This document shows positions 157 to 26,124 of a stretch of 29,203 nucleotides of DNA, piece after piece. The position numbers were made by a program, and so were the translations under genes. Under the pieces are notes generated by a model, which searched no databases, was not told the DNA's origin, and saw only the letters and a list, made by a program, of their open reading frames with translations. The stretch covers positions 1 through 29,203 of IMG/VR virus record IMGVR_UViG_3300025896_000139, one strand, 5' to 3'. The stretch's first letter is position 1. The number at the start of each line of letters is the position of its first letter. The DNA is from a virus.

Positions 157-972
157 ATGGCAGCTTCAGAAGGCGTAGACTTAGAATGGGCTATAGTAGA
201 TCATGTAAACATGATGAATGGCACTTTAACTTCTCCAACCAAAAAATATTCAACTAAGATCGAACAGCAGGCTAAGAAGTGCGCCGAACATGTATTTGAT
301 TTTGCTGGAAATAAAAAAGTAGAAGCATGGCATTCAGATGACAATACTAATCCATTCCATGTTTCTATTTCTGCAAAACCAGAACCAAAAACTGACGTAG
401 TATTTAAGATTGGTAATACGATATATACTGCTTCAGTTAAAATGGCTGGTCCAGTTCAATTGGCATCTGGACAAGGAGTTAGTACTGCCGAATTATTTGA
501 AGCAGCAGCACAACATCTAAATAATAAAGTAAAGTCTAAAGTTTTAGAATCTATTATACATGAATTAAGAACTATGCCTACTAGACTATTGTCTGAAGGT
601 AATAAGCCTCGAATACTCGGTGAAGGTAAACAAAAAATAATAGATGAATTTATAAAAAATGGTAAAGTCATAAGCGACAAAAGTTATGACGTATGGTTGC
701 AAAATAATAAACCAATGTTAATGACAAAGTTGCTTGATTATGTTGAAAACGATCATGACTTTAAAGTTGCTTTGTTATATGAATCAATGACTGGCGAAAA
801 AACTTTATCAAAATATAAAGGTGCTGTAGCAAACAGTATTATTAGTCCTAAAGGTTTCTATGAAATAGATGGACCATATGTTAATAGCATTTTCTCGCGA
901 GTAAAATTCGATATTAGAGGTAAGTCTAGAAGTGGCATTACAGGCGTGGCTTTTAGAATTGATTTAAATTAA
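157..972 (+). CDS. Conserved hypothetical phage protein, 271 aa
   Basis: I do not recognise this protein with confidence. Around residues 76-108 there is a strand-strand pattern KTDVVFKIGN then ASVKMAGPVQLASGQG. The spacing of an aspartate and a (S)xK element, followed by a QLxSGxG stretch, is reminiscent of the PD-(D/E)xK nuclease core, but the match is weak and no function is claimed. There is no signal peptide or membrane segment. It is the first gene after a terminator. The upstream gap contains TATAATAAATA (115-125), which resembles a late-promoter octamer with extra bases. Codon use is more A/T-rich than in the next gene. The start has only a weak GGA ribosome binding site. Confidence 0.75.
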   Translation: MAASEGVDLEWAIVDHVNMMNGTLTSPTKKYSTKIEQQAKKCAEHVFDFAGNKKVEAWHSDDNTNPFHVSISAKPEPKTDVVFKIGNTIYTASVKMAGPVQLASGQGVSTAELFEAAAQHLNNKVKSKVLESIIHELRTMPTRLLSEGNKPRILGEGKQKIIDEFIKNGKVISDKSYDVWLQNNKPMLMTKLLDYVENDHDFKVALLYESMTGEKTLSKYKGAVANSIISPKGFYEIDGPYVNSIFSRVKFDIRGKSRSGITGVAFRIDLN

Positions 973-985
973 ATTCGCTAGACGG

Positions 986-1014
986 TGTACAATAAATCTA
1001 ATGTGTGGTATAAT
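986..1014 (+). promoter_or_regulatory. Promoter of the TGTACA / TATAAT family
   Basis: TGTACA (986-991), a 17-bp spacer and TATAAT (1009-1014) match the promoter family repeated through this window. The spacer begins ATAAATC rather than the more usual TTAATTCGT. The start codon of the nucleotidyltransferase gene lies 17 bases downstream of the -10 box. Confidence 0.8.
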
Positions 1015-1031
1015 ACTACTATAAAGACAAA

Positions 1032-2261
1032 ATGCTAAACTTAAAAGACTACCTAAAAGAAGAAAAAAACGTTCACATGGAACACATTGAGGACCTAATC
1101 TTCAATGAAGGTGTTACAGGAACTCGTAAAGCAATCAACTTTCTGCAGGACTTACGCGACATGCTCGCCGGTCACAGCAAGACCAAGATCACCGCAACAG
1201 TGAAGTGGGACGGAGCTCCAGCAATCTTCGCTGGCATCGATCCTCGTGATGGAAAATTCTTCGTAGCAAAGAAGGGTATCTTTAACAAGAATCCAAAGGT
1301 CTACAAGACTAACGCTGACATTGATGTTGACTTAAGCGGTGAACTAGCAGCGAAGTTTAAGACAGCTCTGAAAGAATTCTCAAAGCTTGGTATCAAGTCT
1401 GGTGTATATCAAGGTGACTTGATGTTTACCGATGACAAGAAGACTGAGTCTATTGATGACGAGAAGTTCATCACCTTCCATCCAAACACGATCATGTATG
1501 CAGTGCCATATAACTCATTGCTTGGCAAGAAGATTCGTTCAGCTAAGATCGGAGTGATCTGGCATACTACTTACGTCGGTGATTCTTTCGAATCAATGTC
1601 TGCTTCATTCGGCAAGACTATAGTTGATAAGCTCAATGATGTACCATCTATTTGGATGGATGATGCAAACTATAAAGACTATTCTGGTACAGCAACATTT
1701 ACTGATGCTGAAACTAAAGAAGTCACGGCAGTCCTATCCCGCGCAGGTACTCTGTTTAATTCCATTAGCGCTCCGACATTGAATGCAATTAGTAATGACG
1801 AAGACTTGCTTATGGCAGTCAAGACATTCACTAATTCAAAGATTCGTAAGGGTGAATACATCACCAACACTAAAGCTCACGTTAAAGAACTCTATCATTG
1901 GATCCACGATAGATACGAAAAAGAGATTGAAAAGAAAAAGACTCCTGCTGGAAAGAAGACACAGGAAGATATGCGTAAGAAGATCCTAAGTTTCTTTGCG
2001 CACCACGACCAAAATCAAATTGTTGCGATCTTTGATTTGGCAAACCTATTAGTTGAAGCGAAAGCATTGATCATCGGCAAGATGAATCAGGCTGGACATG
2101 TTAGTACATTCCTTAAGACATCGGATGGATTTAAAACAACCGGCGTAGAAGGTTTTGTTGCTATTGATCACCTTACCGGTGGAGCCGTGAAGATCGTTGA
2201 TCGTATGGAATTCAGTAAAGCAAACTTCAGCCCACTCATCATTAAAGGATGGACGAAATGA
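1032..2261 (+). CDS. Ligase-fold nucleotidyltransferase, DUF6267-like, with capsid-targeting-like N-terminus
   Basis: This 409-aa protein carries the signature of covalent nucleotidyltransferases (DNA/RNA ligases and capping enzymes). Motif I is KWDG at residues 58-61, with K58 the probable AMP- or GMP-acceptor. A KKG element follows at 80-82, a GDL element resembling motif III at 128-130, motif IV as EGFV at 373-376, and motif V around K387 (AVKIVDR). The roughly 240 residues between motif III and IV are far more than in DNA ligases and contain long charged helices. Conserved relatives in aquatic T4-like phages are usually left unnamed (DUF6267, from memory). The first ten residues, MLNLKDYLKE, match the T4 capsid-targeting pattern ending L-x-E. 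It has its own promoter and overlaps the next gene by ATGA. Substrate is unknown. Confidence 0.8.
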   Translation: MLNLKDYLKEEKNVHMEHIEDLIFNEGVTGTRKAINFLQDLRDMLAGHSKTKITATVKWDGAPAIFAGIDPRDGKFFVAKKGIFNKNPKVYKTNADIDVDLSGELAAKFKTALKEFSKLGIKSGVYQGDLMFTDDKKTESIDDEKFITFHPNTIMYAVPYNSLLGKKIRSAKIGVIWHTTYVGDSFESMSASFGKTIVDKLNDVPSIWMDDANYKDYSGTATFTDAETKEVTAVLSRAGTLFNSISAPTLNAISNDEDLLMAVKTFTNSKIRKGEYITNTKAHVKELYHWIHDRYEKEIEKKKTPAGKKTQEDMRKKILSFFAHHDQNQIVAIFDLANLLVEAKALIIGKMNQAGHVSTFLKTSDGFKTTGVEGFVAIDHLTGGAVKIVDRMEFSKANFSPLIIKGWTK

Positions 2262-2902
2262 TTACATTTAAAGATTATATCCAAGAAAAACGCGGCCTAT
2301 GGGATAACATCCATGCCAAGAGAAAACGAATTAAAGCTGGATCCGGTGAACACATGCGTAAGCCGGGAAGCAAAGGCGCTCCATCTGAAGCTGATCTAAA
2401 GGCTGCAAATGAAGAAGTTCAAATTGACGAGATCGTAGTAGCATTGGCTCCAATTGATGTTCGCAATCCTAAAAAGACTCCACAGCCACAAAGATACATG
2501 GGCGACATTGTTCCACCGACGAAGCCTCCATCTACAGAAAAGCGTGGAGTCAAAGGACGTCCCGGACAAAGACCAATGCCGACTTATGAAGAAGTTGTGG
2601 CAGAAGACAATACCGCGCCTAGCAAAAAATATCATGTTACAGTTGATCATCATGGTGCAAATAGAGATGTTCCTTTGTATACAAGAACCTATCCAGTTCA
2701 TGCAAAGAGTGAGCATGAAGCCATTGGTACTATTCATAAATTAGTTGGCGGTAGAAACCATCGTGTTGAACATAGTGTTGCAGAAGAGAATACTCAAGGC
2801 GATGAGGGAACCGATAAACTTACCAAGCATCGCAAGAAGCTTACGCCCAATGAATCGCCAGTAACACCCGAACTACTTAAGAATTTCGAAACGTATAAAT
2901 AA
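2258..2902 (+). CDS. Modular phage protein with capsid-targeting-like N-terminus and basic KRKRIKAG motif
   Basis: The 214-aa protein starts at the ATG that overlaps the previous stop codon (ATGA). A start three codons upstream is possible but would hide the N-terminal peptide. Residues 1-10, MITFKDYIQE, closely match the T4 internal-protein targeting peptide. Next comes a basic block (WDNIHAKRKRIKAGSGEHMR, from residue 13) seen in many aquatic T4-like phage proteins, then an EEVQIDE linker (residues 52-58) containing an L/I-x-E site. A proline-rich stretch follows, and finally an alpha/beta module (KKYHVTVDHH to HRVEHSVAEE). Low complexity and the modular layout suggest a processed head-interior protein rather than an enzyme. 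This role is inferred. Confidence 0.75.
   Translation: MITFKDYIQEKRGLWDNIHAKRKRIKAGSGEHMRKPGSKGAPSEADLKAANEEVQIDEIVVALAPIDVRNPKKTPQPQRYMGDIVPPTKPPSTEKRGVKGRPGQRPMPTYEEVVAEDNTAPSKKYHVTVDHHGANRDVPLYTRTYPVHAKSEHEAIGTIHKLVGGRNHRVEHSVAEENTQGDEGTDKLTKHRKKLTPNESPVTPELLKNFETYK
2894..2901 (+). promoter_or_regulatory. T4-like late promoter octamer TATAAATA
   Basis: An exact TATAAATA overlaps the stop codon of the preceding gene. In T4 this octamer is the whole late promoter, recognised by gp55, with transcription starting about ten bases downstream. That would leave a short leader before the ATG at 2932. No TGTACA-type promoter is present here. Confidence 0.6.
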
Positions 2903-2931
2903 ACTATAACAATTTGTATTGATGGAATAAA

Positions 2932-5013
2932 ATGAAAAAACTAAGACAGGTCTTAAAAGAACTGCCATCTAGAAAAGTAGTGTTCGCATTTGGTCGCTTT
3001 CAGCCGCCAACTACAGGCCACGAGTTGCTTGTCAATATAGTAAAAAAGGTCGCCTCTGCTCAGAAGGCCGATCACGTCATCTTCGCTTCACGAACGCATG
3101 ACAAAAAATCCAACCCACTTCCAGTAGATCGTAAGGTATATTACCTTAAGAGAATGTTTCCAAAGACGAACTTCGTCGCAGCGAATGATGACGTACGTAC
3201 GTTCATTGAAGCAGCTAAGATGTTGTCTGGAAAGTACAAGAATCTAGTGATGATCGCCGGGTCGGACAGAGTTCCAGAGTACAAGAAGATCCTTGAGAAG
3301 TACAATGGCGATGTATTCCATTTTGATACAGTTGAAGTGGTATCTGCCGGTGAACGCGACCCAGACGCAGACAGTGCATCGGGTATGTCGGGCACTAAAA
3401 TGAGAGCCGCAGCTGTTGATGGTGACTATAAGAAGTTTAAGACAGGTCTACCAAAATCACTCACTGATCTTGATGGCAGACGTCTCATGAATGAGATTCG
3501 TACTGGCATGGGAATGGAAGTCGTTAAGGAACAAGTTAAGTTTGAAACAAATGATTTGCGTGAAAAGTACTATTCTGGACAAATCTTTAACATTGGCGAA
3601 AAAGTAACCGATGGCCAAAACATCTTTGAAATCATTGATCGTGGTTCTAATTATATCACAGTTGTTAATGAATCCGGCGCCACCAGTAAGAAATGGCTTG
3701 ATGCAGTACAGCCAATCGTAACTGAAGATATTAAACCAGGCTATGCTCCAAAGCAGATAAGCTATAAGGGTTACACCACTAAGAACTTTGATAGATCTGA
3801 AGATGCAGCAAAGGCATTCCAAGATACTATTGAAAGAGATGGCGATCCAGTTGCAATCTTAAATGCTATTAAGGCTACTGACACTTACATGGGTCTCAAT
3901 GATAAGCACTTGACCGGCGAAAAGTTTACAGATCGAGAAAAAGAAACATGGATTGCTGCTCATGAAAAGGCTAGAGAGTCTTTAAATAGAGTTGGAGAAT
4001 TTGCTCATCACCAAGATTATTGGCATACGCACCAGCATGAGCTGGAAGGTACTTTAGTTCATTATGACAAATCTGGTAAAGAAGACATGCGATCAGAAGA
4101 ACATACAGAAAGACTAGAAGAAATGAAATTCTCATCAATAGACAGAATCAAAGTAGCACGCATTATTGCCGGTTCGCTTGGAGTGCCAGATGTAGAAGAA
4201 AAATCTGGCGCAGCAGAAATGGTAAACCAAGGTTTGCGTTTCATTAAGAACAAACACATGACACCAGAAGCTTGGAGTGTTGTTGGCAATATGCTTCAAA
4301 TGGCTACCGATGCCGGAATCAACTATGATCACAACATCGTTAAGGGTAAAGTTGAAGAAGCCGTTATCAATAAAGATGACCATAAAAACGGTGAGTCTGA
4401 TCAAGAAGCAGAGCACTCTGAAAAGCCAGAATCTAGTAAAATTGGTCATAGCTTAGGTGGTACTAGCGATGCTCATCGTAGAATGAAGATCAAGTATGCT
4501 CTCGGTGAAGAGTCTGAGCGGGAAGAACTTGAGGATGAAGGTCTATCAGACGAAGAAATCGATGACATGATCGGTAAGCTTGGCGATGACGATTATCTAG
4601 AGGCTTATGACGACGAAGAACTCGCAGTCATCGATGACGAGACCGGCGAACACATTCATGATCTAAAGGAAGAGGCTCTAATGGAAGTTCTTTCACGTGC
4701 TGAAAGAATTAGAGCTAAGATTAGATTTGCAAGATCAGAAGCAAAACGTGAACGTAAGACTCGCATTGCACTTAAGACAAGATCTACTGGTAAGACTATT
4801 AATGCCAGAGCTAGACGCATGGCTGTTAATATGATGAAGATGAAGATTGCAAAGAAACCTCTCGACAAGTTAAGTGTTGCTGAGAAAGAAAGAATTGAAA
4901 GAACTCTATCGAAAAGAAAAGCTGTGATCAATCGCATTGCAATGAAGATGGCACCAAAGGTACGTAAGATTGAGAACGATAGACTAGTACATAGAACATA
5001 TACAAAGGGTTAA
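2932..5013 (+). CDS. Multidomain protein with N-terminal NadM/cytidylyltransferase-like domain and basic C-terminal module
   Basis: The 693-aa protein opens with a 10-residue peptide MKKLRQVLKE (an L-x-E end, as in capsid-targeting peptides). It continues into a nucleotidyltransferase domain of the HxGH class: GRFQPPTTGH at 21-30 and the C-terminal motif MSGTKMR at 152-158, where ISxTxxR is usual. This suggests NMN adenylyl- or a cytidylyl-transferase activity. Residues about 212-262 form a KOW/SH3-like module (GQIFNIGEKV to KKWLDAVQP). Residues about 400-470 are a helical module common in aquatic phage proteins. A strongly acidic stretch follows. The last 130 residues are very rich in Arg/Lys and may bind DNA or pack in the head. 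It follows a late-type promoter. Substrate is unproven. Confidence 0.85.
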   Translation: MKKLRQVLKELPSRKVVFAFGRFQPPTTGHELLVNIVKKVASAQKADHVIFASRTHDKKSNPLPVDRKVYYLKRMFPKTNFVAANDDVRTFIEAAKMLSGKYKNLVMIAGSDRVPEYKKILEKYNGDVFHFDTVEVVSAGERDPDADSASGMSGTKMRAAAVDGDYKKFKTGLPKSLTDLDGRRLMNEIRTGMGMEVVKEQVKFETNDLREKYYSGQIFNIGEKVTDGQNIFEIIDRGSNYITVVNESGATSKKWLDAVQPIVTEDIKPGYAPKQISYKGYTTKNFDRSEDAAKAFQDTIERDGDPVAILNAIKATDTYMGLNDKHLTGEKFTDREKETWIAAHEKARESLNRVGEFAHHQDYWHTHQHELEGTLVHYDKSGKEDMRSEEHTERLEEMKFSSIDRIKVARIIAGSLGVPDVEEKSGAAEMVNQGLRFIKNKHMTPEAWSVVGNMLQMATDAGINYDHNIVKGKVEEAVINKDDHKNGESDQEAEHSEKPESSKIGHSLGGTSDAHRRMKIKYALGEESEREELEDEGLSDEEIDDMIGKLGDDDYLEAYDDEELAVIDDETGEHIHDLKEEALMEVLSRAERIRAKIRFARSEAKRERKTRIALKTRSTGKTINARARRMAVNMMKMKIAKKPLDKLSVAEKERIERTLSKRKAVINRIAMKMAPKVRKIENDRLVHRTYTKG

Positions 5014-5014
5014 C

Positions 5015-5461
5015 ATGAACGGATTAGTATCAGCATTAAGAATAGCAATGGCGAATACCTTCGTCATGTATTTTAAAACACAGGGATTCCATTGGAACGT
5101 GGAAGGTATTCACTTTAGTCAATACCATAGTTTCTTTGGTGATATCTATGATGATCTATATGGATCTGTAGATGCATTTGCTGAGAACATTAGAAAGCTT
5201 GGAGAGTATGCTCCAAAAAGTCTAGCTGACATGTACAAGTCAACCACTTTAGTTGAGTCTGATATTGTTGGCGACAGCTTGAAAGAAATGCTAAATAGTC
5301 TGCTAACAGATAATACAGAAGTGCTTAATTCATTGAATAGAACCTTCGCACTAGCAAACACCGCAAACGAACAAGGACTAGCAAATTACATTGCAGAACG
5401 TATTGATGCGCACAAGAAACACGAATGGCAAATCCGTTCATCGCTAAAGGGACAAGAATGA
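5015..5461 (+). CDS. Dps-like ferritin (DNA-protection protein)
   Basis: At 148 aa it is a short member of the Dps/ferritin family, which stores iron and shields DNA as a 12-mer cage. The ferroxidase signature is present: H26-W27-N-V-E-G, H38, then D53 and E57 in the D-x-x-A-E pattern followed by IRKLG. These positions correspond to E. coli Dps H51, H63, D78 and E82. The position equivalent to D67 is G42, with an aspartate one residue on, so the metal site may be altered. It lacks the basic N-terminal tail of E. coli Dps. It starts one base after the previous stop and overlaps the next gene by ATGA, so it is translated together with two putative head-interior proteins. It may protect packaged or injected DNA; this is inference. 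Confidence 0.9.
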   Translation: MNGLVSALRIAMANTFVMYFKTQGFHWNVEGIHFSQYHSFFGDIYDDLYGSVDAFAENIRKLGEYAPKSLADMYKSTTLVESDIVGDSLKEMLNSLLTDNTEVLNSLNRTFALANTANEQGLANYIAERIDAHKKHEWQIRSSLKGQE

Positions 5462-6861
5462 GCACACTTAAAGATATTTTAGAACAGCGCGGAATGGGTC
5501 GTGGTCCATGCTGCCCTGGTTGTGGAATGCGCATGAGAATGCAGCAAGGCAATTGTCCTGATTGTGGCGTTAAATATGGATTAGGCATGGGCGCCGCTGA
5601 TGCACCTGGCATGTCTGAAGAAAAAGAAGAAGAACCAACGGCAGACTTTAAATTAGATAAAGCTGGAAGAAAAATCAAAGCATCGAAGATCGTCTTCAAC
5701 CAAGGCGAAGATGATTCAACAAAGAGAGTACAAGAAGATATGAAAACAACATACAAAGATCTCGTTGGTGCATATGCAGCAATGCGCTCAGAATCCCTAC
5801 AGCTTGAAGATGAGATCAATGAAGTCTTGTCTAAGGACGCGGCCGCTGGCGAATGGATCAGTGACTTTGTTCACAGCGATAATCCAAAGTTTGCTGGTAA
5901 GTCTAAAGAGAAGCGTAAACAGATGGCACTAGCAGCTTATTACGCTAAGCAAAAGAATGAAGAAGTTGACGAATCAACAGTGCCTGCACACATGAAGGGT
6001 AAGCAAAAACCATACGTATCTACCATTGGTGCTGACCATGAAGTGCTGGGTAATACTGGTCAAGTTAAAGCAACCTTCACTCGAAAAGAACATGGCAAGG
6101 ACGCAAAAGCAAAGGCTATTGCTCACCTTAAGCAACACTACGATGCTTACATGAAAGAAGAAATTGAACTAACTGAACGTGCTGATCGCGAAGATGACGA
6201 AGGTTATTCTAGAACTAAAGAAGCAGATGACGCGCACAATAGAGCAATCGATGCTGCCGCTGCTAAGAAGAAAGCTGAAGCTGCTAAAAAGACTAATGAA
6301 GAATTAGACGAAGCAGACAAAGAATATAAAATCTCCACAGCTCAAATGGGTCACGCTGGTAAGACGACAATCAAGCACATCAAGAATCCAGACGTTACAC
6401 AACGAATGGCAGCTCATGATGTAAAATCATATGCCGATCGTATTGCTCTATTGAAAGATGCAAAGCGTAAGGGTAACTTAAAGGAAGACGACATGCAAGA
6501 ATCAGCATTCGATTGGAAGAACGCTCCAAGAGAAAAATTCGATAAGACGAAAACAGCTACATATCACGATGTAAAGAAAATCTCTACTGGAACTGTTTAC
6601 ACCAAGCAGTTTGACAAAGATGGTACGTCAAAAGGTACTGGAGATGACGCAGCTAAGAAAGCTGAAGGAGCTGCAAAGCGCGGCCGTGGTCGTCCAAAGA
6701 AAGACAAGTTCGCTGAGTCAGTTGAGATCCTTATGTCTCTATCAGAAGAGCAATTTGACTCGATGATGGAAGATGGCTTTGATGCATTCTTCGAAGCATT
6801 CGAACAAATCGACGAATCGTCTAAAGATGCTCTTAAGACATACGTTAAATCAACAAAATAA
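5458..6861 (+). CDS. Modular phage protein with zinc ribbon, L/I-x-E linkers and an AT-hook
   Basis: The start chosen is the ATG overlapping the Dps stop (467 aa). An ATG 33 bases upstream lies inside dps and lacks support. The N-terminus MSTLKDILEQ resembles the capsid-targeting peptides of its neighbours, although residue 10 is Q, not E. A zinc ribbon follows (C19-P-G-C22 and C33-P-D-C36). Residues about 125-165 are a module (SKDAAAGEWISDF to KRKQMALAAYYAKQ) that recurs in aquatic phage proteins. Further modules are separated by acidic linkers with L/I-x-E sites (LTE 238-240, LDE 283-285, IDE 451-453). An AT-hook-like KRGRGRPKKDK occurs at 407-417. The set suggests a DNA-contacting head-interior protein. 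The function is not known. Confidence 0.8.
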   Translation: MSTLKDILEQRGMGRGPCCPGCGMRMRMQQGNCPDCGVKYGLGMGAADAPGMSEEKEEEPTADFKLDKAGRKIKASKIVFNQGEDDSTKRVQEDMKTTYKDLVGAYAAMRSESLQLEDEINEVLSKDAAAGEWISDFVHSDNPKFAGKSKEKRKQMALAAYYAKQKNEEVDESTVPAHMKGKQKPYVSTIGADHEVLGNTGQVKATFTRKEHGKDAKAKAIAHLKQHYDAYMKEEIELTERADREDDEGYSRTKEADDAHNRAIDAAAAKKKAEAAKKTNEELDEADKEYKISTAQMGHAGKTTIKHIKNPDVTQRMAAHDVKSYADRIALLKDAKRKGNLKEDDMQESAFDWKNAPREKFDKTKTATYHDVKKISTGTVYTKQFDKDGTSKGTGDDAAKKAEGAAKRGRGRPKKDKFAESVEILMSLSEEQFDSMMEDGFDAFFEAFEQIDESSKDALKTYVKSTK

Positions 6862-6877
6862 TTCAAGGAGAATAAAA

Positions 6878-7441
6878 ATGGCACTATGGGGAAAAACCGA
6901 CGCAACAGGCAGTAAGCCTAAGTATCTTAACGCTACTGATGCTGCTAATACAGTATTTGTATCAGTAGAAGAAGCACTTCTAAAGACAAACAAAGACAAG
7001 GGCATTACAGCCGCAGGCTGGTGGTTAGTAACTGAACATAAAGACAACAGTGGTGCAAATCGCTATAATGCTGAATGCTTAGTTGCTATGAGTGTTGCTA
7101 ACGCAGTATCTGGCGACGCAACGGATGACGCTAAGGTAGCAGACGTTGAAGTTACATTGACTATTGGTACTCAACCAGCAGCTCAGACTTCAGTATCCGG
7201 CGTTGCAACATTCGCGGTAGTTGCAACAGCTTCTACTGGAACAGTTACATACCAATGGCAGCGTGCTCTAGCAGCTACGCCAACTCGCTTCACTAACGTA
7301 TCAGGCGCTACATCAGCTTCCCTAGTACTAAGCGGAGTTGTTGCTGGTGACACTGGTAACAAGTATCGCGTTGCTCTAAGTTCTGACTCTGGTGCAGTTA
7401 AGGTTAATTCCGACGCAGCTACACTAACATTCGGTTCTTAA
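6878..7441 (+). CDS. Ig-domain virion structural (decoration-like) protein
   Basis: The start at 6878 is set by a strong AAGGAG ribosome binding site at 6865-6870. Upstream in-frame ATGs lie within the preceding gene. The 187-aa protein begins MALWGKTDATGSKPKY, an N-terminus I recall from virion proteins of cyanophages and other aquatic T4-like phages. Residues about 95-187 form an Ig-like beta-sandwich (TIGTQPAAQTSVSGVATFAV, then TVTYQWQRA, then GNKYRVALSS). This is the type found on phage capsid or tail surfaces, like Hoc, where it aids weak binding to cells or glycans. It is followed directly by a terminator, so it closes the unit that began at the late promoter near 2894. Confidence 0.85.
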   Translation: MALWGKTDATGSKPKYLNATDAANTVFVSVEEALLKTNKDKGITAAGWWLVTEHKDNSGANRYNAECLVAMSVANAVSGDATDDAKVADVEVTLTIGTQPAAQTSVSGVATFAVVATASTGTVTYQWQRALAATPTRFTNVSGATSASLVLSGVVAGDTGNKYRVALSSDSGAVKVNSDAATLTFGS

Positions 7442-7443
7442 TA

Positions 7444-7465
7444 GAAGGGGCTTCGGCCCCTCTTC
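7444..7465 (+). terminator. Rho-independent terminator with UUCG loop
   Basis: GGGGC (7447-7451) pairs with GCCCC (7456-7460) around a TTCG loop, extended by GAA/TTC at the base. It lies immediately after the Ig-domain gene. Confidence 0.85.
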
Positions 7466-7468
7466 AAT

Positions 7469-7840
7469 ATGAAATTAACTGACAGTAATTTTCTTCTATA
7501 TGCAATGCGCCACTATGATAACATACAGTGCCAAACAATAGAAGAGTTTGAAGAAGATTTAAAGAAGCTTCTTTACATTAAGAAGCTTCTTTCTCGTTAT
7601 AAGAATGATAATGATTTAAAAGAAAAATTAATTCTAAACCATATCATAGTATCGTATAATGTATTTGGTGATGCATTTACTAATATGATATTTTTTAAGA
7701 TAGACAAAGAACATTGGCCAGCGTTAACAACATTCTTAGTATGTGTTAACCGTATGCCAGATGTAGTAGAATTCCACGGAATTATGTTGTCGGATATAAC
7801 TCTAGACCAGAACATAATCTCAGCATTAAGAAAGATCTAA
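7469..7840 (+). CDS. Conserved T4-like phage hypothetical, 123 aa
   Basis: This all-alpha looking protein starts MKLTDSNFLLYAMRHYDN and contains FEEDLKKLLYIKKLLSRY and LILNHIIVSYNVFGDA. From memory this family is conserved among T4-like phages of aquatic bacteria and sits beside the next gene, but its function is unknown. It has no signal peptide, membrane segment or catalytic motif that I can see. It follows a terminator with only a short gap, so transcription probably comes by read-through or from a promoter I could not identify. It ends one base before the next start codon, so the two genes are likely co-translated. Confidence 0.85.
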   Translation: MKLTDSNFLLYAMRHYDNIQCQTIEEFEEDLKKLLYIKKLLSRYKNDNDLKEKLILNHIIVSYNVFGDAFTNMIFFKIDKEHWPALTTFLVCVNRMPDVVEFHGIMLSDITLDQNIISALRKI

Positions 7841-7841
7841 A

Positions 7842-8384
7842 ATGATTGATAACCTAATAGCATTCAGAATTCTGTATATGCTCGTTACATCATTCGACAA
7901 GACGGATGCATTTAAACTTGGCATTATCGATGCTGATGGCAACCCTCTTAAAAAGATTAAAGATCTTAAGACATCTGAAGAAAAAGATGCTTATGATATG
8001 TTAGATCGTTTGGTATTCTCGTTGAAGAGATTACTTGGTAAAGTACCAGGCGGTAAGAGCAAGCTAGCAAGTCTAGCTGCAGCGTATTGGTTAGTTAAGG
8101 AGTCCTATGAGACTCAAGAAGTTGTTACTCAAGAACAGCTAAATAGTCTTGTGGATCTAATTGAATCGAATCAGATCGTGTTGAAAGAACAATCTGATAT
8201 TAAAGGTTATCTAAGTCTTACTGAAGACGGTGTTGCCGGCGGGGTTGCTAACGTTGCTGGCGCCGCTACTGCAACCGATAAGCCCGTTGTTAAGTTAAAT
8301 AAAAAGAATAAGCCGGTGTCTGGTATAATTGGTACTCCTAATTACATTGTACGCCGTAACAAAAAAATTACACCGATGGGATGA
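7842..8384 (+). CDS. Conserved T4-like phage hypothetical, 180 aa
   Basis: The helical N-terminal part (MIDNLIAFRILYMLVTSFDKT, then DLKTSEEKDAYDMLDRLVFSL and PGGKSKLASLAAAYWLVKE) resembles a family I recall next to the preceding gene in aquatic T4-like phages. Function is unknown. The C-terminal third is low-complexity, Gly/Ala/Val-rich (about residues 130-145) and ends in a basic tail (VRRNKKITPMG). The start is one base after the previous stop, and the end overlaps the next gene (ATGA at 8381). The fixed pairing with the 123-aa protein suggests a shared structural or morphogenetic role, which is inference only. Confidence 0.85.
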   Translation: MIDNLIAFRILYMLVTSFDKTDAFKLGIIDADGNPLKKIKDLKTSEEKDAYDMLDRLVFSLKRLLGKVPGGKSKLASLAAAYWLVKESYETQEVVTQEQLNSLVDLIESNQIVLKEQSDIKGYLSLTEDGVAGGVANVAGAATATDKPVVKLNKKNKPVSGIIGTPNYIVRRNKKITPMG

Positions 8385-8386
8385 AC

Positions 8387-9475
8387 ATGAAAAACTTTAC
8401 AGAATTTAGCGCAGAATTAGACGAAGCTTCTAATGATTATTTCAAACGTCGTAAAGATGAAGAAGGACGCATTGCAGGAACTAAAGCTCCTGCTAAACGC
8501 ACACCTAAGCAAACTGATTACGAAAAGAAACGTAAAGAACAAAAAGTAACTGAATCTGCTGTTTGTGCACAATGCGATTCAGATCCGTGCATCTGTGATG
8601 ACTCTCATGGATTTGTATCTGAGGCTATCGATAAAGAACATCCAATCGTCAAAGAGTATGATTCGTTAAAGAAAAACCATGACATCAAGTCTCTTAGAGG
8701 TTTGATTAAAGGTCAACATCGTATCGTTGACACTTCTGAATACAAGACAAAAGACCATGCAATCTCTGCATACCTTCGTACTAAGCACGGCGATAAGAAA
8801 GTAGATAAAGCATTTGGGTTTAAAGAAGAAGTCGAACTAGACGAAGCTCATAAGATTGGTTCTCCAGTTGAAGTGATTAAAGGTTCTGGTAAAGGTATAA
8901 AGGGTCACATCGGTGAAATTCGTCATGGTGCTTATAAAGGCGCGCCAAAGACTTATACAGTATTTCATGGAGATAAAGGTGCTATTCAGGTTGGCAAGGA
9001 GCATATCCGTGCAGTTAAAGAAGAAGTTGAATTAGACGAAGCTGCTCAAGGCCATACTATTGAAGCTCACGGAATTCGTGGCATGAAACGTACTGCTTGG
9101 AGAAAAACATTTAAGAGTCACGAACATCTATCGAAATGGGCAGACGCTAATGATAGCGTTGAAGTTCATGCTACTCGTGATTTAGAACAAGCTAAGAAGG
9201 GTAACCTATCTCCAGCTATAAAAGAAGAATCTCAAGCTATGCATAGAGTTGGCGTGACTGTATCTGAGAAGGACCATCCAATGGTCTCTAAGCGTCTAGA
9301 GAAACAACAGAAGTTTGTTAAGGTGTCTGCTGGTAGTAAAGAAGAGGCTGTGACAAAAGCTAAGAAGTTCTACACTAAACAAGGTTATCACGTGCACGGC
9401 GCAGCACACCATTCTATGGTGAGTGAAGAAATTAAGTCTACTTCTATTCCAAGCTTTAAAGAATTCATCGAATAA
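8387..9475 (+). CDS. Modular phage protein with capsid-targeting-like N-terminus and repeated EEVELDEA linkers
   Basis: The ATG at 8387 is preferred because GGGA lies 5 bases upstream. An ATG at 8381 overlaps the previous stop and is also possible. The 362-aa product begins MKNFTEFSAE then LDE, very close to the T4 peptide MKTYQEFIAE. A Cys cluster (C60, C63, C68, C70) may bind zinc. Three separable modules follow, at about 85-145, a KOW-like one at 158-212 (KGSGKGIKGHIGEI), and 225-275. A last alpha/beta module lies at about 286-348 (MHRVGVTVSEKDHPMV onward). The linkers EEVELDEA occur exactly twice (148-154 and 213-219), each with an L-x-E site. The C-terminus SFKEFIE again resembles the targeting peptide. 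Confidence 0.8.
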   Translation: MKNFTEFSAELDEASNDYFKRRKDEEGRIAGTKAPAKRTPKQTDYEKKRKEQKVTESAVCAQCDSDPCICDDSHGFVSEAIDKEHPIVKEYDSLKKNHDIKSLRGLIKGQHRIVDTSEYKTKDHAISAYLRTKHGDKKVDKAFGFKEEVELDEAHKIGSPVEVIKGSGKGIKGHIGEIRHGAYKGAPKTYTVFHGDKGAIQVGKEHIRAVKEEVELDEAAQGHTIEAHGIRGMKRTAWRKTFKSHEHLSKWADANDSVEVHATRDLEQAKKGNLSPAIKEESQAMHRVGVTVSEKDHPMVSKRLEKQQKFVKVSAGSKEEAVTKAKKFYTKQGYHVHGAAHHSMVSEEIKSTSIPSFKEFIE

Positions 9476-13919: not shown

Positions 13920-13955
13920 AAAGTATTACACGTAGTACTTTAAAGTAGGTATGAT
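13920..13955 (+). promoter_or_regulatory. Short hairpin and possible weak promoter before the homospermidine synthase gene
   Basis: AAAGTA (13920-13925) pairs with TACTTT (13936-13941), forming a small hairpin. A TATGAT (13950-13955) preceded by GG could act as an extended -10 box for the next gene, but no convincing -35 box is present. The family promoter TGTACA is absent here. Confidence 0.3.
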
Positions 13956-13983
13956 TATTTTTCTTATTAGCATAAGGACAATA

Positions 13984-15417
13984 ATGAAAGCTATAAAACC
14001 GTTTAAACAGTTTGCACTATCAAAAAGCAAACTTACTAATTATGATAAGAAGATATTGATCATCGGCTACGGAAGCGTAGGCCAAGCAATATTAGAATTG
14101 ACCTTGAGACACATCGCATCAAATCCCGCTAACGTTACAGTCATAGAGAAGGACAACAATAAAGCTGTCCTCACTAAACGACATGGTAGCACAATCAAGT
14201 ATGCTAGAGCTAACATAGTACGAGGCAATCTCGCGTCTACGTTAAAGAAGTATCTTGAGCCGGGTGGATTCCTAATCGACGTTAGTTGTAACATCGACGT
14301 TGATGCTATCATGCAATGGTGTTGGGAGAACGATGTAATGTACATCAATACTTCTCTCGAACGATGGGCAGATGAAGTAGACGAAACAATTCCGGTTCTT
14401 GCTAATCGTACTCTGTATTCTACTCATAATGAAGTAAGAGCTTTTGCTTCTAAATACCCCAATGCATCTACTGCTATAGTAACCCACGGTGCTAATCCAG
14501 GACTAGTGACTCACCTCACTAAACGCGCACTATTGAAGTTAGCTGAAGAGCGTGGCGAAGAAGTTGAAGTGCCAACAGATCGTCAAGGTTGGGCTTTGCT
14601 CATGAAAGATCTTGGTGTTAAGGTTATCCACATTGCAGAACGTGATACACAGATTCTAGATAAGCCAAAGGAAAAGAATGAATTTGTAAACACATGGAGT
14701 TGCGAAGGATTCTGGGCTGAAGGTAGAGCACCTGCTGAAATGGGATGGGGAACACATGAGAACAAGAATCCTGAAGGTGGAAAGACTCAAGGAAGCTCAG
14801 CATATCTTATGGCACCGGGCATTTCAGTTCTAATGAAATCATGGGTGCCAAAGGGTGGACAATACAATGGATTCTGTGTTCAGCATAGCGAATCCATTAC
14901 GATGAGCGAATACTTCACCACAAAGGATAAGAAGTTTAGACCTTCGATCTATTACGTCTATCAGCCATGTGATGCCGCTATTGCATCAGTACATGAACTT
15001 CGTGGTAGAGAGTTAGACATGCAGGTTAAATATCGTATCGCAAAGGATGAGATCATCAGTGGTATCGATGAATTGGGAGTCCTACTGATAGGTGAGAAGT
15101 TCTGTGCTTGGCATGGATCTCAATTGAGTATCGATGAAGCAAGAAAGTTGATACCCGGTGAGAGCGCCACATCCGTACAAGTTGTATCGTCTATGTTAGG
15201 CGCTATCATCTGGGCTATAGAGAATCCACGAATGGGGTACGTCGAACCGGAGGCTATCCCGTATGAATATATACTACACTATGCGGATCCTTATTTAGGA
15301 CCAGTTCCATTCGTAATGTCTGACTGGTCTCCCAATAAAGATACGAATAGTTTATTTTATCGAGAGTATGATGCATCTAACCCATGTTCATACGAAAATT
15401 ACAGAGTATGGACTTAA
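13984..15417 (+). CDS. Homospermidine synthase (saccharopine-dehydrogenase-like)
   Basis: The enzyme joins putrescine (or spermidine) units with NAD to give homospermidine. Seen are the N-terminal Rossmann motif GYGSVG (28-33), VTVIEKDN after the second strand, DVSCNIDVDAIMQWC and THGANPGLVTH. The family-specific NTWSCEGFWAEGRAP and AEMGWGTHE, with the tryptophan that shapes the active site, are also present. At 477 aa the length matches bacterial homospermidine synthases. The ATG at 13984 is chosen because AAGGA lies just upstream; an ATG at 13951 is in frame but has no site. It sits between two ribonucleotide reductase genes. The product could neutralise packaged DNA or alter host polyamines; both are inference. 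Confidence 0.93.
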   Translation: MKAIKPFKQFALSKSKLTNYDKKILIIGYGSVGQAILELTLRHIASNPANVTVIEKDNNKAVLTKRHGSTIKYARANIVRGNLASTLKKYLEPGGFLIDVSCNIDVDAIMQWCWENDVMYINTSLERWADEVDETIPVLANRTLYSTHNEVRAFASKYPNASTAIVTHGANPGLVTHLTKRALLKLAEERGEEVEVPTDRQGWALLMKDLGVKVIHIAERDTQILDKPKEKNEFVNTWSCEGFWAEGRAPAEMGWGTHENKNPEGGKTQGSSAYLMAPGISVLMKSWVPKGGQYNGFCVQHSESITMSEYFTTKDKKFRPSIYYVYQPCDAAIASVHELRGRELDMQVKYRIAKDEIISGIDELGVLLIGEKFCAWHGSQLSIDEARKLIPGESATSVQVVSSMLGAIIWAIENPRMGYVEPEAIPYEYILHYADPYLGPVPFVMSDWSPNKDTNSLFYREYDASNPCSYENYRVWT

Positions 15418-16650: not shown

Positions 16651-16924
16651 TAAGATTATTATCTACTACAAAGATGGAACATTCGAAGAAGTTAAAACTG
16701 GCGTTCATGATATGGCGGATAAACAAAATTCGCCTCCTGTTAACCCAATTGGCAAACAAGATGTGAATAAGTATCCACCGCTATATTATCCACCCGGTGT
16801 GCGTGGATGGGAGCTTCCTTACACTGTGACATGCGGCGATACGTCTATGAATAAATATACCATTGCAACTAATGGTAATGGTTATGTGGACGTTTCAAGA
16901 AACAGTGGTAGAGAATTTACCTGA
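16631..16924 (+). CDS. Hypothetical protein, 97 aa
   Basis: No family is recognised. The ATG at 16631 is favoured because GAGG lies about nine bases upstream; an in-frame ATG at 16622 directly abuts that site. The N-terminal part (TKKIDKIIIYYKDGTFEEVK) looks like a beta-hairpin, followed by a Pro/Tyr-rich middle (YPPLYYPPGVRGWELP). The gene overlaps the zinc-ribbon gene and runs into the GIY-YIG-like gene, in keeping with the dense packing here. Confidence 0.7.
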   Translation: MTTKKIDKIIIYYKDGTFEEVKTGVHDMADKQNSPPVNPIGKQDVNKYPPLYYPPGVRGWELPYTVTCGDTSMNKYTIATNGNGYVDVSRNSGREFT

Positions 16925-17309
16925 AGACTGCGTTGGTTTTGTTTATTTAATTACGAACAAAACCAACGATAGAAAGTATGTCGGTAAGAAATTAGCGAAG
17001 TTCTCTAAGACTACGTATAAAACCGTGGTCTTAAAAAACGGCACTAAGAAAAAGAAGAAGATCAAGTCGAAGATTGACTCTGATTGGATAACCTACTATG
17101 GTTCTAGCATAGAGCTCAGCAAGGATATAGCGTTACTCGGTGAGGACAACTTCACTCGGGAGATTCTATTCTATTGTAAGTCTAAAGCAGAATGTTCATA
17201 CATCGAAGCTAGGGAGCAATTCACCCGGCGAGTACTCGAATCCACTGAGTACTATAATGGACAGATATCAGTGAGAGTCCACGGCTCTCACATCATAGGA
17301 AAAATATGA
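16884..17309 (+). CDS. GIY-YIG-like nuclease-fold protein
   Basis: The first motif of the GIY-YIG fold appears as GFVYLITNK (from residue 18) and KYVGKK (32-37), where GIY and YIG are usual. Later TYYGSSIELSKDIALLGEDNFTREIL follows the pattern of GIY-YIG nucleases of phages. The closing part (AECSYIEAREQFTRRVL and YYNGQI) matches a family I recall as conserved in T4-like phages. The nearly canonical tyrosines and arginine suggest an active or recently active nuclease. It may be a fixed phage gene rather than a mobile homing enzyme. Several in-frame ATGs (16863-16884) are possible starts, all inside the previous gene. The stop overlaps the next start (ATGA). Confidence 0.7.
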   Translation: MWTFQETVVENLPEDCVGFVYLITNKTNDRKYVGKKLAKFSKTTYKTVVLKNGTKKKKKIKSKIDSDWITYYGSSIELSKDIALLGEDNFTREILFYCKSKAECSYIEAREQFTRRVLESTEYYNGQISVRVHGSHIIGKI

Positions 17310-20214: not shown

Positions 20215-20391
20215 ATGGTTAAGATGCTTGCTATTTTTGTTCTATTGGCAATCGTAGTGATGATTGGTATCACTCTATTCCAAAATACGACTGGTAAAGA
20301 AAAATTAGCTTTTCTAAAAGTCGTATGGTATGGTCTTCTGTGTTCTGCCATTTCGGTTGGTATTCTTTCTGTTATTGTTTTATTATTTTAA
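20215..20391 (+). CDS. Small membrane protein, 58 aa
   Basis: Two hydrophobic segments (about 4-20 and 37-57) are joined by a short polar loop (QNTTGKEKLAF). The start is the ATG two bases after the ATPase stop; an in-frame ATG at 20197 lies inside the ATPase gene. No family is recognised. Its place between the ATPase and the SPFH lipoprotein suggests the three act together at the inner membrane. Confidence 0.7.
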   Translation: MVKMLAIFVLLAIVVMIGITLFQNTTGKEKLAFLKVVWYGLLCSAISVGILSVIVLLF

Positions 20392-20398
20392 GGTTTAT

Positions 20399-21196
20399 AT
20401 GAAATCGTTAGTTAAAATTGTTATGTTGGTCGCTGCTTTGGTTTCACTACAAGCATGTACTCGGATTGAAACGGGTGAAGTTGGTGTTCGTCTTAATGCG
20501 AGCAAACAGGTTGAAGGCGCTGAGTTGCAACCAGGTGGTTTCTATCAAACGCTGGTTGGTTCGGTGATCACCTTTCCAGTCAAAGATCTTTCAATCAATA
20601 TTGAAAATAAGTCTCCAATGGCATCTGATAATTCTGCGCTAGCTGACTTTGATATGACTGTTGTGTATGCAATCAATCCAACATCTGCTGCTGAATTATA
20701 TTCTACAAAATCACGCTCATTCCATGCTGAGAATAAAGGTGATATCTATCTGATGTATAACTACATGACTACGCTAGCAAACAATGCTGTATATAAAGTT
20801 GTTCGTCAATACAAATCTTTAGAAGTTGCCGATAACCGTGCTAAGATTGAAGTTAAAATTCGTGAAGCAGTTCATGAACAACTGAAAGCTGAAAACCTCG
20901 ACACAGCATTGTCTCTGACTGTAGTGCAAGTTCGTTCTATTCTTCCTAATGCTGAAATCTTGAAGTCTGCTACTGAATATGTTAAGGCTCAAAACGAATT
21001 GAAGATCAAGGAAACTGAAGTTCAAATCGCTAAGAAAGAATCTGAACGTATGGCTGCACTGTCGGCAAACTCTGGAACTTCTATTGCATACATGCAAGCT
21101 CAGGCTGCTATGAAGATTGCGGAAGGTATTGCAAATGGCAAGGTTAACACTATCGTGGTTCCAATGGACTTCAAAGGTATCGTAAACGTTAAATAA
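20399..21196 (+). CDS. SPFH/prohibitin-like lipoprotein
   Basis: The start at 20399 follows AAGG and gives a lipoprotein signal (MKSLVKIVMLVAALVSLQAC) with the lipobox LQAC. The 265-aa product then has an SPFH (Band 7) domain: RIETGEVGVRLN, FPVKDLSINIENKSPMASDN, the ALADFDMTVVYAINP strand, and a long coiled coil (EYVKAQNELKIKETEVQIAKK). SPFH proteins such as HflK/HflC form membrane cages that restrain the FtsH protease. Related prohibitin-like genes are known in some T4-like phages. A lipid anchor instead of a transmembrane helix would place it on the periplasmic side. It ends in a terminator. Confidence 0.88.
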   Translation: MKSLVKIVMLVAALVSLQACTRIETGEVGVRLNASKQVEGAELQPGGFYQTLVGSVITFPVKDLSINIENKSPMASDNSALADFDMTVVYAINPTSAAELYSTKSRSFHAENKGDIYLMYNYMTTLANNAVYKVVRQYKSLEVADNRAKIEVKIREAVHEQLKAENLDTALSLTVVQVRSILPNAEILKSATEYVKAQNELKIKETEVQIAKKESERMAALSANSGTSIAYMQAQAAMKIAEGIANGKVNTIVVPMDFKGIVNVK

Positions 21197-24812: not shown

Positions 24813-25675
24813 TTTTAATTGATTATTCAGCAGTCTGTGTTGCAGCAATTCTTGCTTTCTCTGCTGATCTTAAACGTGGTTCTGAGAACGAAAAGAAAGA
24901 TCTCATTCGCCATGTAGCACTGTCCTCTATTCGTTCTTATAAAAAGAAGTATGGCAAGGAATTCGGCGAAATCGTTATTGCGTGTGATGGTCGTCATTAC
25001 TGGCGCCGTGAAGTGTTTCAATACTACAAAGGCAATCGTAAGAAAGCACGTGAAGCATCTGACATTGATTGGAGTTTGATCTTCAATACGTTGTCTGAGA
25101 TTCGTGATGATCTCGTTGCTCACTTTCCGTATAAGGTAATCCATATCGATCGTGCCGAAGGCGATGATGTCATTGCTGTGATCACTGAGTCTACCCAAGA
25201 ATTTGGTCAGTTTGAACCAGTGATGATCGTATCATCTGACAATGACTTCGTTCAGTTGCAGGAATATGATAACGTAAAGCAATTTAGTCCTATGACTAAG
25301 AAATTAATTGCAGTAAATAAGAAGCAACTTCATGAGAAGCTTATCACTCACGTAGTGAAAGCCGGCGACGATGGTATTCCTAACATCCTATCTGCTGACG
25401 ATGTCTTTATGACTGGAACTCGTCAGACTTCTGTAAGTGCTAAACGTCTCGCTGAGTTTATTGAAATTGGTATCGATGCATGCCGCAATGATCTTGAGCG
25501 TGCTCGTTGGCAGCGCAATTATGTTATGACTAGTTTCAAATGTATTCCTGAAGACATTAAGGAATCCATCCTCACCGCATACGCCGTCAAAGCTACAGGT
25601 GATAAGAACTCGATCATGAATTATCTTATTAAAAACAAGTGCCGACAACTGTTGGACACAATAGAGGACTTTTAA
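24809..25675 (+). CDS. rnh: T4-type RNase H (5'-3' exonuclease, FEN-like)
   Basis: The enzyme removes RNA primers and flaps during lagging-strand synthesis. Visible motifs are D5 near the N-terminus, ACDGRHYWRRE with D60, the positively charged YYKGNRKKAR (72-81), EGDD (117-120), SSDNDF (142-147) and KAGDDGIPNI. All are typical of T4 RNase H and FEN/PIN-type nucleases. At 288 aa it is close to T4 RNase H (305 aa). It overlaps the preceding gene by ATGA and the next by one base. It presumably works with the DNA ligase encoded 0.7 kb downstream. Confidence 0.94.
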   Translation: MILIDYSAVCVAAILAFSADLKRGSENEKKDLIRHVALSSIRSYKKKYGKEFGEIVIACDGRHYWRREVFQYYKGNRKKAREASDIDWSLIFNTLSEIRDDLVAHFPYKVIHIDRAEGDDVIAVITESTQEFGQFEPVMIVSSDNDFVQLQEYDNVKQFSPMTKKLIAVNKKQLHEKLITHVVKAGDDGIPNILSADDVFMTGTRQTSVSAKRLAEFIEIGIDACRNDLERARWQRNYVMTSFKCIPEDIKESILTAYAVKATGDKNSIMNYLIKNKCRQLLDTIEDF

Positions 25676-26124
25676 TGTTTAAACACATTCCCGAAATTCT
25701 TGAAGAGTGTAACAAAGACGTAACTCTTTTTGCGAATTATAAAAACAATGCAGGTCTAAAGTTTATCTTTGAGCACGCATTCATTCCTGAAAAGAAGTTC
25801 ATCTTGCCTGAAGGAGAGCCTCCATTCAAACCGGATTCAGCTCCTATTGGTATGACTCCGTGTAACTTCACCCAGGAAACTAAGAAGCTATATGTGTTCA
25901 CTGCAGCACGTTCGGATCTCAAAGCTCTACGCCGTGAGACACTCTTCATCCAATTACTTGAAAATATTCACCCATCTGAAGCAAAAGTTTTACTTGCTGT
26001 AAAAGACCAGAAGCTAAATAAGCTATATAAGAATATCACTGCAAAGGTTGCAGCGGAATATGGTTTCATTACTCTACCAGTAAAGCAAAAACAAGATGGG
26101 GAATCAACACCAAAAAAATCTTAA
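25675..26124 (+). CDS. Conserved T4-like phage hypothetical, DUF6433-like
   Basis: The start is the ATG overlapping the rnh stop (TAATG), giving 149 aa. The protein has the pattern I recall for DUF6433 proteins of aquatic T4-like phages: LKFIFEHAF, LPEGEPPF, KLYVFTAA, LRRETLFIQLLENIHPSEAK and LYKNITAKVAAEYGF. Function is unknown, but the family is usually found among replication genes, as here. The stop lies inside the next gene. Confidence 0.8.
   Translation: MFKHIPEILEECNKDVTLFANYKNNAGLKFIFEHAFIPEKKFILPEGEPPFKPDSAPIGMTPCNFTQETKKLYVFTAARSDLKALRRETLFIQLLENIHPSEAKVLLAVKDQKLNKLYKNITAKVAAEYGFITLPVKQKQDGESTPKKS

Follow-up and report, generated by a model that had tools for sequence, protein, structure and literature searches.

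A probable T4-like cassette of capsid-targeted internal head proteins in a marine-type phage related to Kyanoviridae

The IMG/VR virus record IMGVR_UViG_3300025896_000139 (29,203 bases, the whole of which is referred to here as the window) carries a gene block at positions 157-9475, followed by ThyX, ribonucleotide reductase (RNR) and DNA-metabolism genes. This block is most probably an internal-head-protein cassette of a marine-type, T4-like phage, kin to Kyanoviridae and their allies. Five of its proteins begin with a short peptide (the tag) resembling the capsid-targeting sequence (CTS) of T4 internal proteins, and the cassette very probably uses the T4 CTS/gp21 system itself. The tag, its conserved columns, its restriction to the cassette, the presence of gp21 in relatives and the synteny are established by sequence comparison. 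The tagged genes and the features next to them are the following, with an arrow marking the candidate cut:

1032-1061, + strand: tag MLNLKDYLKE, site L-K-E↓E; E10 invariant in 35 homologues
1032-2261, + strand: DUF6267 protein, probable covalent nucleotidyltransferase with ligase-type motifs KWDG, QGD, EGFV and K387 (PF19782, E 1.6e-107; weak ligase fold matches)
2258-2287, + strand: tag MITFKDYIQE, site I-Q-E↓K; CTS-like decapeptide
2258-2902, + strand: modular cassette protein 1, with whole-segment differences among orthologues
2894-2901, + strand: TATAAATA, a box resembling T4-type late promoters, some 30 bases ahead of the start codon at 2932
2932-2961, + strand: tag MKKLRQVLKE, site L-K-E↓L; E10 in 28 of 30 homologues
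2932-5013, + strand: NMN/NaMN adenylyltransferase-fold (NMNAT-like) protein ('cytidyltransferase') with a long C-terminal extension (phrog_3041, E 7.5e-74; Foldseek NadD, E 9.4e-6); orthologues in virions
5458-5484, + strand: tag MSTLKDILE, site I-L-E↓Q in register 7-9; E9 kept in relatives
5458-6861, + strand: modular cassette protein 2, with segments moved, lost or gained among close relatives
8387-8425, + strand: tag MKNFTEFSAELDE, site L-D-E↓A at residues 11-13; CTS-like peptide
8387-9475, + strand: modular cassette protein 3 (phrog_26930, E 1.9e-29), with module-sized partial homologues
5015-5461, + strand: Dps/ferritin-like protein (PF00210, E 4.8e-22), untagged; a neighbour, not counted as cargo
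6878-7441, + strand: head-associated protein adjoining the cassette (phrog_613 'head protein'); the syntenic S-SZBM1_136 is a virion protein

A preliminary description of this DNA had named the same five open reading frames (ORFs), and their N-terminal peptides (MLNLKDYLKE, MITFKDYIQE, MKKLRQVLKE, MSTLKDILEQ and MKNFTEFSAE) were found exactly as it gave them. Its comparison with T4 also holds, ipII and ipIII beginning MKTYQEFIAE, as does its observation that L/I-x-E occupies exactly residues 8-10 in three of the five. In the 8387 protein L-D-E follows MKNFTEFSAE at residues 11-13, again as described, and in the 5458 protein the site is I-L-E at residues 7-9, in another register. Dps had been placed among the tagged genes: the gene is there, but its product begins MNGLVSALRI, without a tag, and was ruled out as tagged cargo.

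Within the window, L/I-x-E falls inside residues 7-13 in 5 of 32 curated ORFs, exactly the five tagged ones, against a background of 118/1422 (8.3%) in six complete genomes and a 130-kb relative. This comparison was drawn up after the five had been seen, and more weight is therefore given to a rule taken from T4 and to a test on IMG/VR loci. In the T4 CTS, residues 4 and 7 serve mainly for targeting and residues 8 and 10 for processing (review PMC9026906). A strict rule fixed from T4 genetics (M..[FYL]..[FYLI][ILV].E, ATG starts) matches 3 of the 270 ORFs of T4, namely ipII, ipIII and gp61.1. Applied to seven related sequences (the window, the 130-kb relative, Melnitz, C48C1, HTVC008M, DLP_6 and S-SM1), it matched 11 of 66 cassette genes and 0 of 1205 others (p = 3e-15, an optimistic value, since the cassette limits were drawn by synteny once the sequences had been viewed and the genomes share homologous genes). 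The specificity of the rule for the cassette is plain at the sequence level. The T4 gp61.1 gene (NC_000866 18966-19130) encodes a 54-residue hypothetical protein beginning MKTFKEFIKE.

The scan for the N-terminal pattern that the preliminary description had proposed, run on the window and its relatives, likewise found the tag concentrated in the cassette. A looser pattern, fixed beforehand, was applied to 79 IMG/VR loci that had been collected by their DUF6267 genes. When DUF6267 was left aside and duplicates were counted once, 86/381 cassette genes matched vs 27/574 genes further out (odds ratio 5.9, p = 9e-17); DUF6267 itself matched in 70 of 77 cases. The tagged families are unrelated, comprising NMNAT-like proteins, DUF6267, a HAD phosphatase, modular proteins and several proteins without a family match. 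The tagged HAD phosphatase (L108) matches polynucleotide-kinase families. A PD-(D/E)xK nuclease identity, suspected by eye for tagged genes upstream of DUF6267, received no support from Pfam or PHROGs. A broader regular expression also matched non-cassette genes, such as 25639-26124 (MFKHIPEILEE, an internal start), which were taken as background, and a search with an invented consensus tag peptide as query gave no matches. In C48C1 (OQ984149 57293-57910), a gene lying some 4 kb upstream of the cassette encodes a protein of 205 residues with the tag-like N-terminus MKFKTYLNE; judging by this peptide, tagged cargo may also be encoded outside the cassette.

Conservation within the tagged families follows the same columns. 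All 35 DUF6267 proteins compared have Glu10; 34 have I/L at position 8, 32 have Y/F at position 7 and 33 have F/L at position 4, with positions 2, 3, 6 and 9 variable. E10 is kept in 28 of 30 NMNAT-like proteins, and nearly all homologues have F/L/Y at position 4 and Y/F/L/V/I at position 7. In these alignments, the conserved columns are the targeting (4, 7) and processing (8, 10) columns of T4. In the predicted structures of the DUF6267 and NMNAT-like proteins, residues 1 to 8-16 lie outside the fold and are among the least certain parts.

The window stops short of the head genes, and the gp21-type protease was sought in relatives. All nine IMG/VR relatives with records over 100 kb contain Peptidase_S77 (among them the 130-kb one whose NMNAT-like domain is 88% identical to that of the window), as do five of five named phages (14/14 in total). 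The gp23 prosegments of the phages examined, with cleavage points assigned by homology, end in L-x-E (FLSE↓A, ALFE↓A, ALNE↓I, LLSE↓T), as does that of T4 gp23 (FLTE↓A). The late box TATAAATA is enriched ahead of NMNAT-like genes, 35/95 of which have a copy in the upstream stretch of about 80 bases, compared with 51/1126 untagged genes; for the remaining tagged genes the count is 15/189. The single window copy is not above chance on its own. Late expression is part of the best reading of the cassette.

Published virion mass spectrometry (MS), taken here from four reports, provides evidence on the proteins themselves. In S-SM1, the 'citidylyltransferase' T4-GC190 was seen in virions, unlike in S-PM2 (PMC3037559); SSM1_190 begins MKKFSAFLNEA. 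In S-SCSM1, the NMNAT ORF91 (N-terminus MKSFLQFLKEA) was detected (PMC9602691), and the sequence record labels ORFs 89, 90, 92, 93, 95 and 97, all in the same block, as virion proteins. S-CREM2 virions contained ORF154 (MKNFSSFLTEA) together with ORFs 155, 156 and 160 (PMC10665884); ORF156 (L046:5013-5723) has a marginal match to NTP_transf_2, a polymerase-beta-type nucleotidyltransferase family. S-SZBM1 virions yielded the tagged protein _140 (MRFRQFIIEA), the adjacent _139 and the head protein _136, but not the untagged DUF6267 protein _141 (MAKNTHLEH) (PMC9146016). In S-PM2, DUF6267 and an NMNAT-like domain are fused behind the untagged N-terminus MATQNKHLEH. In these sources, tagged orthologues were thus detected and untagged ones not, a suggestive contrast. 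A literature search on these virion proteins found no link to a targeting sequence, and the search used gave no homologue in S-CBWM1, whose NMNAT was considered as an additional MS case.

The enzyme identities in the preliminary description were borne out unequally. Its NadM-like nucleotidyltransferase is strongly supported as an NMNAT-like protein: the N-terminal domain of the 2932-5013 protein has a Rossmann nucleotidylyltransferase fold of the NMN/NaMN adenylyltransferase kind, with NadD as its Foldseek match (E 9.4e-6, probability 1.00), and carries GRFQPPTTGH and SGMSGTKMR, motifs of the (H/T)xGH and SxTxxR types. A C-terminal extension of about 430 residues follows the domain. The ligase fold proposed for DUF6267 stands on weaker matches: the best PDB folds are DNA ligases (E 0.07-0.2), RNA ligases follow the homologues in BFVD (E 0.035), and a profile comparison of DUF6267 with the window's own DNA ligase was not significant. 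K58, D60, G61, E373, G374 and K387 are nevertheless invariant in 35 sequences, and the motifs KWDG, QGD and EGFV with a late Lys are as expected for covalent nucleotidyltransferases, which leads us to regard DUF6267 as probably a ligase-type nucleotidyltransferase on sequence grounds. The DUF6267-NMNAT-like fusion, present in S-PM2 and within phrog_455, suggests joint action, and HTVC008M adds a P-loop kinase-like protein and an NT5C-like phosphatase. An immediate part in NAD or nucleic-acid-end repair would fit the cargo, but this is a guess and less likely than not.

In the mechanism proposed, positions 4 and 7 of the N-terminal peptide would bind it to the prohead core, and cleavage after the Glu of L/I-x-E by a gp21-type protease of the phage would leave the mature proteins free in the head beside the DNA, to be carried into the host when infection begins. 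Cleavage, injection and cargo function are what we infer here. The cargo would comprise the NMN/NaMN adenylyltransferase-fold enzyme, the probable ligase-type nucleotidyltransferase and modular proteins with extra internal L/I-D-E sites, and its likely job would be immediate host takeover or counter-defence (for instance NAD supply or nucleic-acid end repair) before phage gene expression. Such a late-expressed, capsid-targeted cargo set, working like the T4 internal proteins, is in all likelihood widespread in Kyanoviridae-like phages.

The tagged proteins could instead be scaffold-like parts of the prohead core that gp21 degrades to fragments, with nothing useful injected. T4 gp22 and gp67 do end as small residual peptides after cutting (PMC9026906), the modular proteins hold many candidate sites, and their MS coverage is low (10-15%). 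We nevertheless consider this unlikely, as conserved enzymes that keep their catalytic motifs are part of the tagged set, and a disposable scaffold has no need of them, and the NMNAT-like enzyme remains in mature virions of relatives, according to the same MS sources. It is more improbable still that the virion detections reflect contamination by abundant co-purifying enzymes of infected cells, and that the N-terminal likeness stems from common descent or from recombination at the 5' end of the genes. Co-purification is a point that the MS authors bring up, and the S-PM2 fusion of DUF6267 with an NMNAT-like domain implies a linked gene history; however, the tagged families (HAD, NMNAT-like, DUF6267, several unknown) are unrelated, their conserved columns match exactly the T4 targeting and processing columns, and detection was reported in four phages by four studies, several neighbours included.

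Several observations weigh against capsid targeting as proposed here. The tagged/untagged comparison in the MS data rests on just four cases vs two, the virions analysed belong to four cyanophages that include neither the window phage nor its close relatives, and two of the MS papers leave co-purification open. Some virion-detected cassette proteins have no clear tag (S-CREM2 155 and 160; S-SCSM1 89, 92 and 93), and other head-entry routes may thus exist. The textbook tag is absent from several cassette proteins and from some phages (HTVC008M, S-PM2), and the 27/574 flanking genes that fit the looser pattern constitute its background. On balance, the capsid-targeting reading of the preliminary description is supported by the T4 columns, the unrelated tagged families, gp21 in relatives and the tagged orthologues in published virion MS, and it survived all tests that could be made. 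The internal L/I-D-E sites and the wide occurrence of the system go beyond that account.

The modular proteins repeat internal L/I-D-E sites, such as KEEVELDE↓A and VEQIDE↓L, located near module boundaries. In the window the candidate internal cleavage sites are:

2411-2431, + strand: EEVQIDE↓I, modular protein 1
6157-6177, + strand: EEIELTE↓R, modular protein 2
6292-6312, + strand: TNEELDE↓A, modular protein 2
6796-6816, + strand: AFEQIDE↓S, modular protein 2
8825-8845, + strand: EEVELDE↓A, modular protein 3
9020-9040, + strand: EEVELDE↓A, modular protein 3

A count of internal sites over a fixed span of genes (-2..+5) gave no enrichment vs neighbours, because modular proteins also sit outside that span, and a hexapeptide-context test took its place, on loci selected by the presence of a DUF6267 or NMNAT-like gene. 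The hexapeptides found in most non-homologous contexts were EEVELD (16), EVELDE (14), KEEVEL (13) and VEQIDE (10), whereas no hexapeptide exceeded three total occurrences in shuffled proteins; the recurrent words converge on L/I-D-E, often with Ala next. Compared with close relatives, modular proteins 1-3 have gained, lost or moved whole segments at such places. In a module-boundary test with masked high-scoring segment pairs, homology breaks were doubled at the sites vs random positions, an excess that a random-mask control reduces to 1.4-1.7-fold and that is accordingly modest.

On this sequence evidence, the internal sites may be gp21 sites dicing polyproteins, a possibility that we rate as serious without calling it probable. 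The KEEVELDE/VEQIDE repeats could equally be flexible acidic linkers, or repeated DNA aiding module shuffling by recombination, rather than cleavage sites; repeated coding sequence would favour the segment gains and losses at repeat places in close relatives without any protease, and this explanation too seems plausible but short of probable. Against it, the recurring words converge on gp21-type L/I-D-E, often followed by Ala, in non-homologous contexts, and the gp23 prosegment of such phages ends in L-x-E↓A or similar. A more tentative extension of the cleavage reading is that the modular proteins are head-packed polyproteins, cut by gp21 into swappable small modules and injected with the enzymes as a combinatorial anti-defence first strike. 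Modular protein 3 and L110, a tagged protein of 261 residues, each match a different part of the 698-residue family phrog_26930, which suggests a natural fusion of an enzyme-sized domain and modules. The C-terminus of the 8387-9475 protein (SFKEFIE, 9452-9472) is similar to its own N-terminal tag; in T4, the C-terminus of Alt is processed too (PMC9026906).

Three other window genes deserve mention. Positions 13951-15417 encode a saccharopine dehydrogenase-type protein (PF03435 and PF16653, E ~1e-21) that has no PHROGs match and is unusual between phage nucleotide genes. The gene at 16863-17309 is labelled 'NAD synthetase' in PHROGs but matches a SegE-type GIY-YIG endonuclease in Pfam (E 8.6e-32), which makes the common annotation misleading. 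A lipoprotein-like SPFH/Band 7 protein (PF01145, E 3.7e-18; phrog_200) is encoded at 20330-21196.

Proteomics has repeatedly met the NMNAT-like enzyme in cyanophage virions, with cargo vs contamination left undecided, and the tag offers a mechanism. The sequence rule predicts injected proteins from the genomes of abundant marine and freshwater phages. The tag suggests that NAD and nucleic-acid enzymes may arrive with the DNA, ahead of any phage gene expression, and the internal sites make it conceivable that polyproteins with interchangeable modules are injected.

The closest known system is that of T4 IPI, IPII, IPIII and Alt, with which the cassette shares a ten-residue N-terminal peptide, hydrophobic residues at 4 and 7, I/L at 8 and Glu10, as well as a gp21-family protease (here in relatives), a late-promoter-like box and a variable cargo set. 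It differs in its NMNAT-like, ligase-like, HAD phosphatase-like and modular cargo, encoded together between replication and RNR genes, whereas T4 carries small basic proteins and an ADP-ribosyltransferase. The cyanophage virion NMNAT/cytidylyltransferase proteins (S-SM1 T4-GC190, S-SCSM1 ORF91, S-CREM2 ORF154 and S-SZBM1_140) are orthologous, lie in a syntenic cassette and are all tagged like the window protein, which has the extra C-terminal extension of about 430 residues; the sections consulted of the papers on them propose neither a tag nor a head route and leave co-purification open. The SPN3US/phiKZ-type ejection proteins are likewise head proteins processed after Glu by a prohead protease, several of them ejected into the host, but they belong to giant phages, their motif is A/S-x-E and most of their propeptides are long (over 100 residues).

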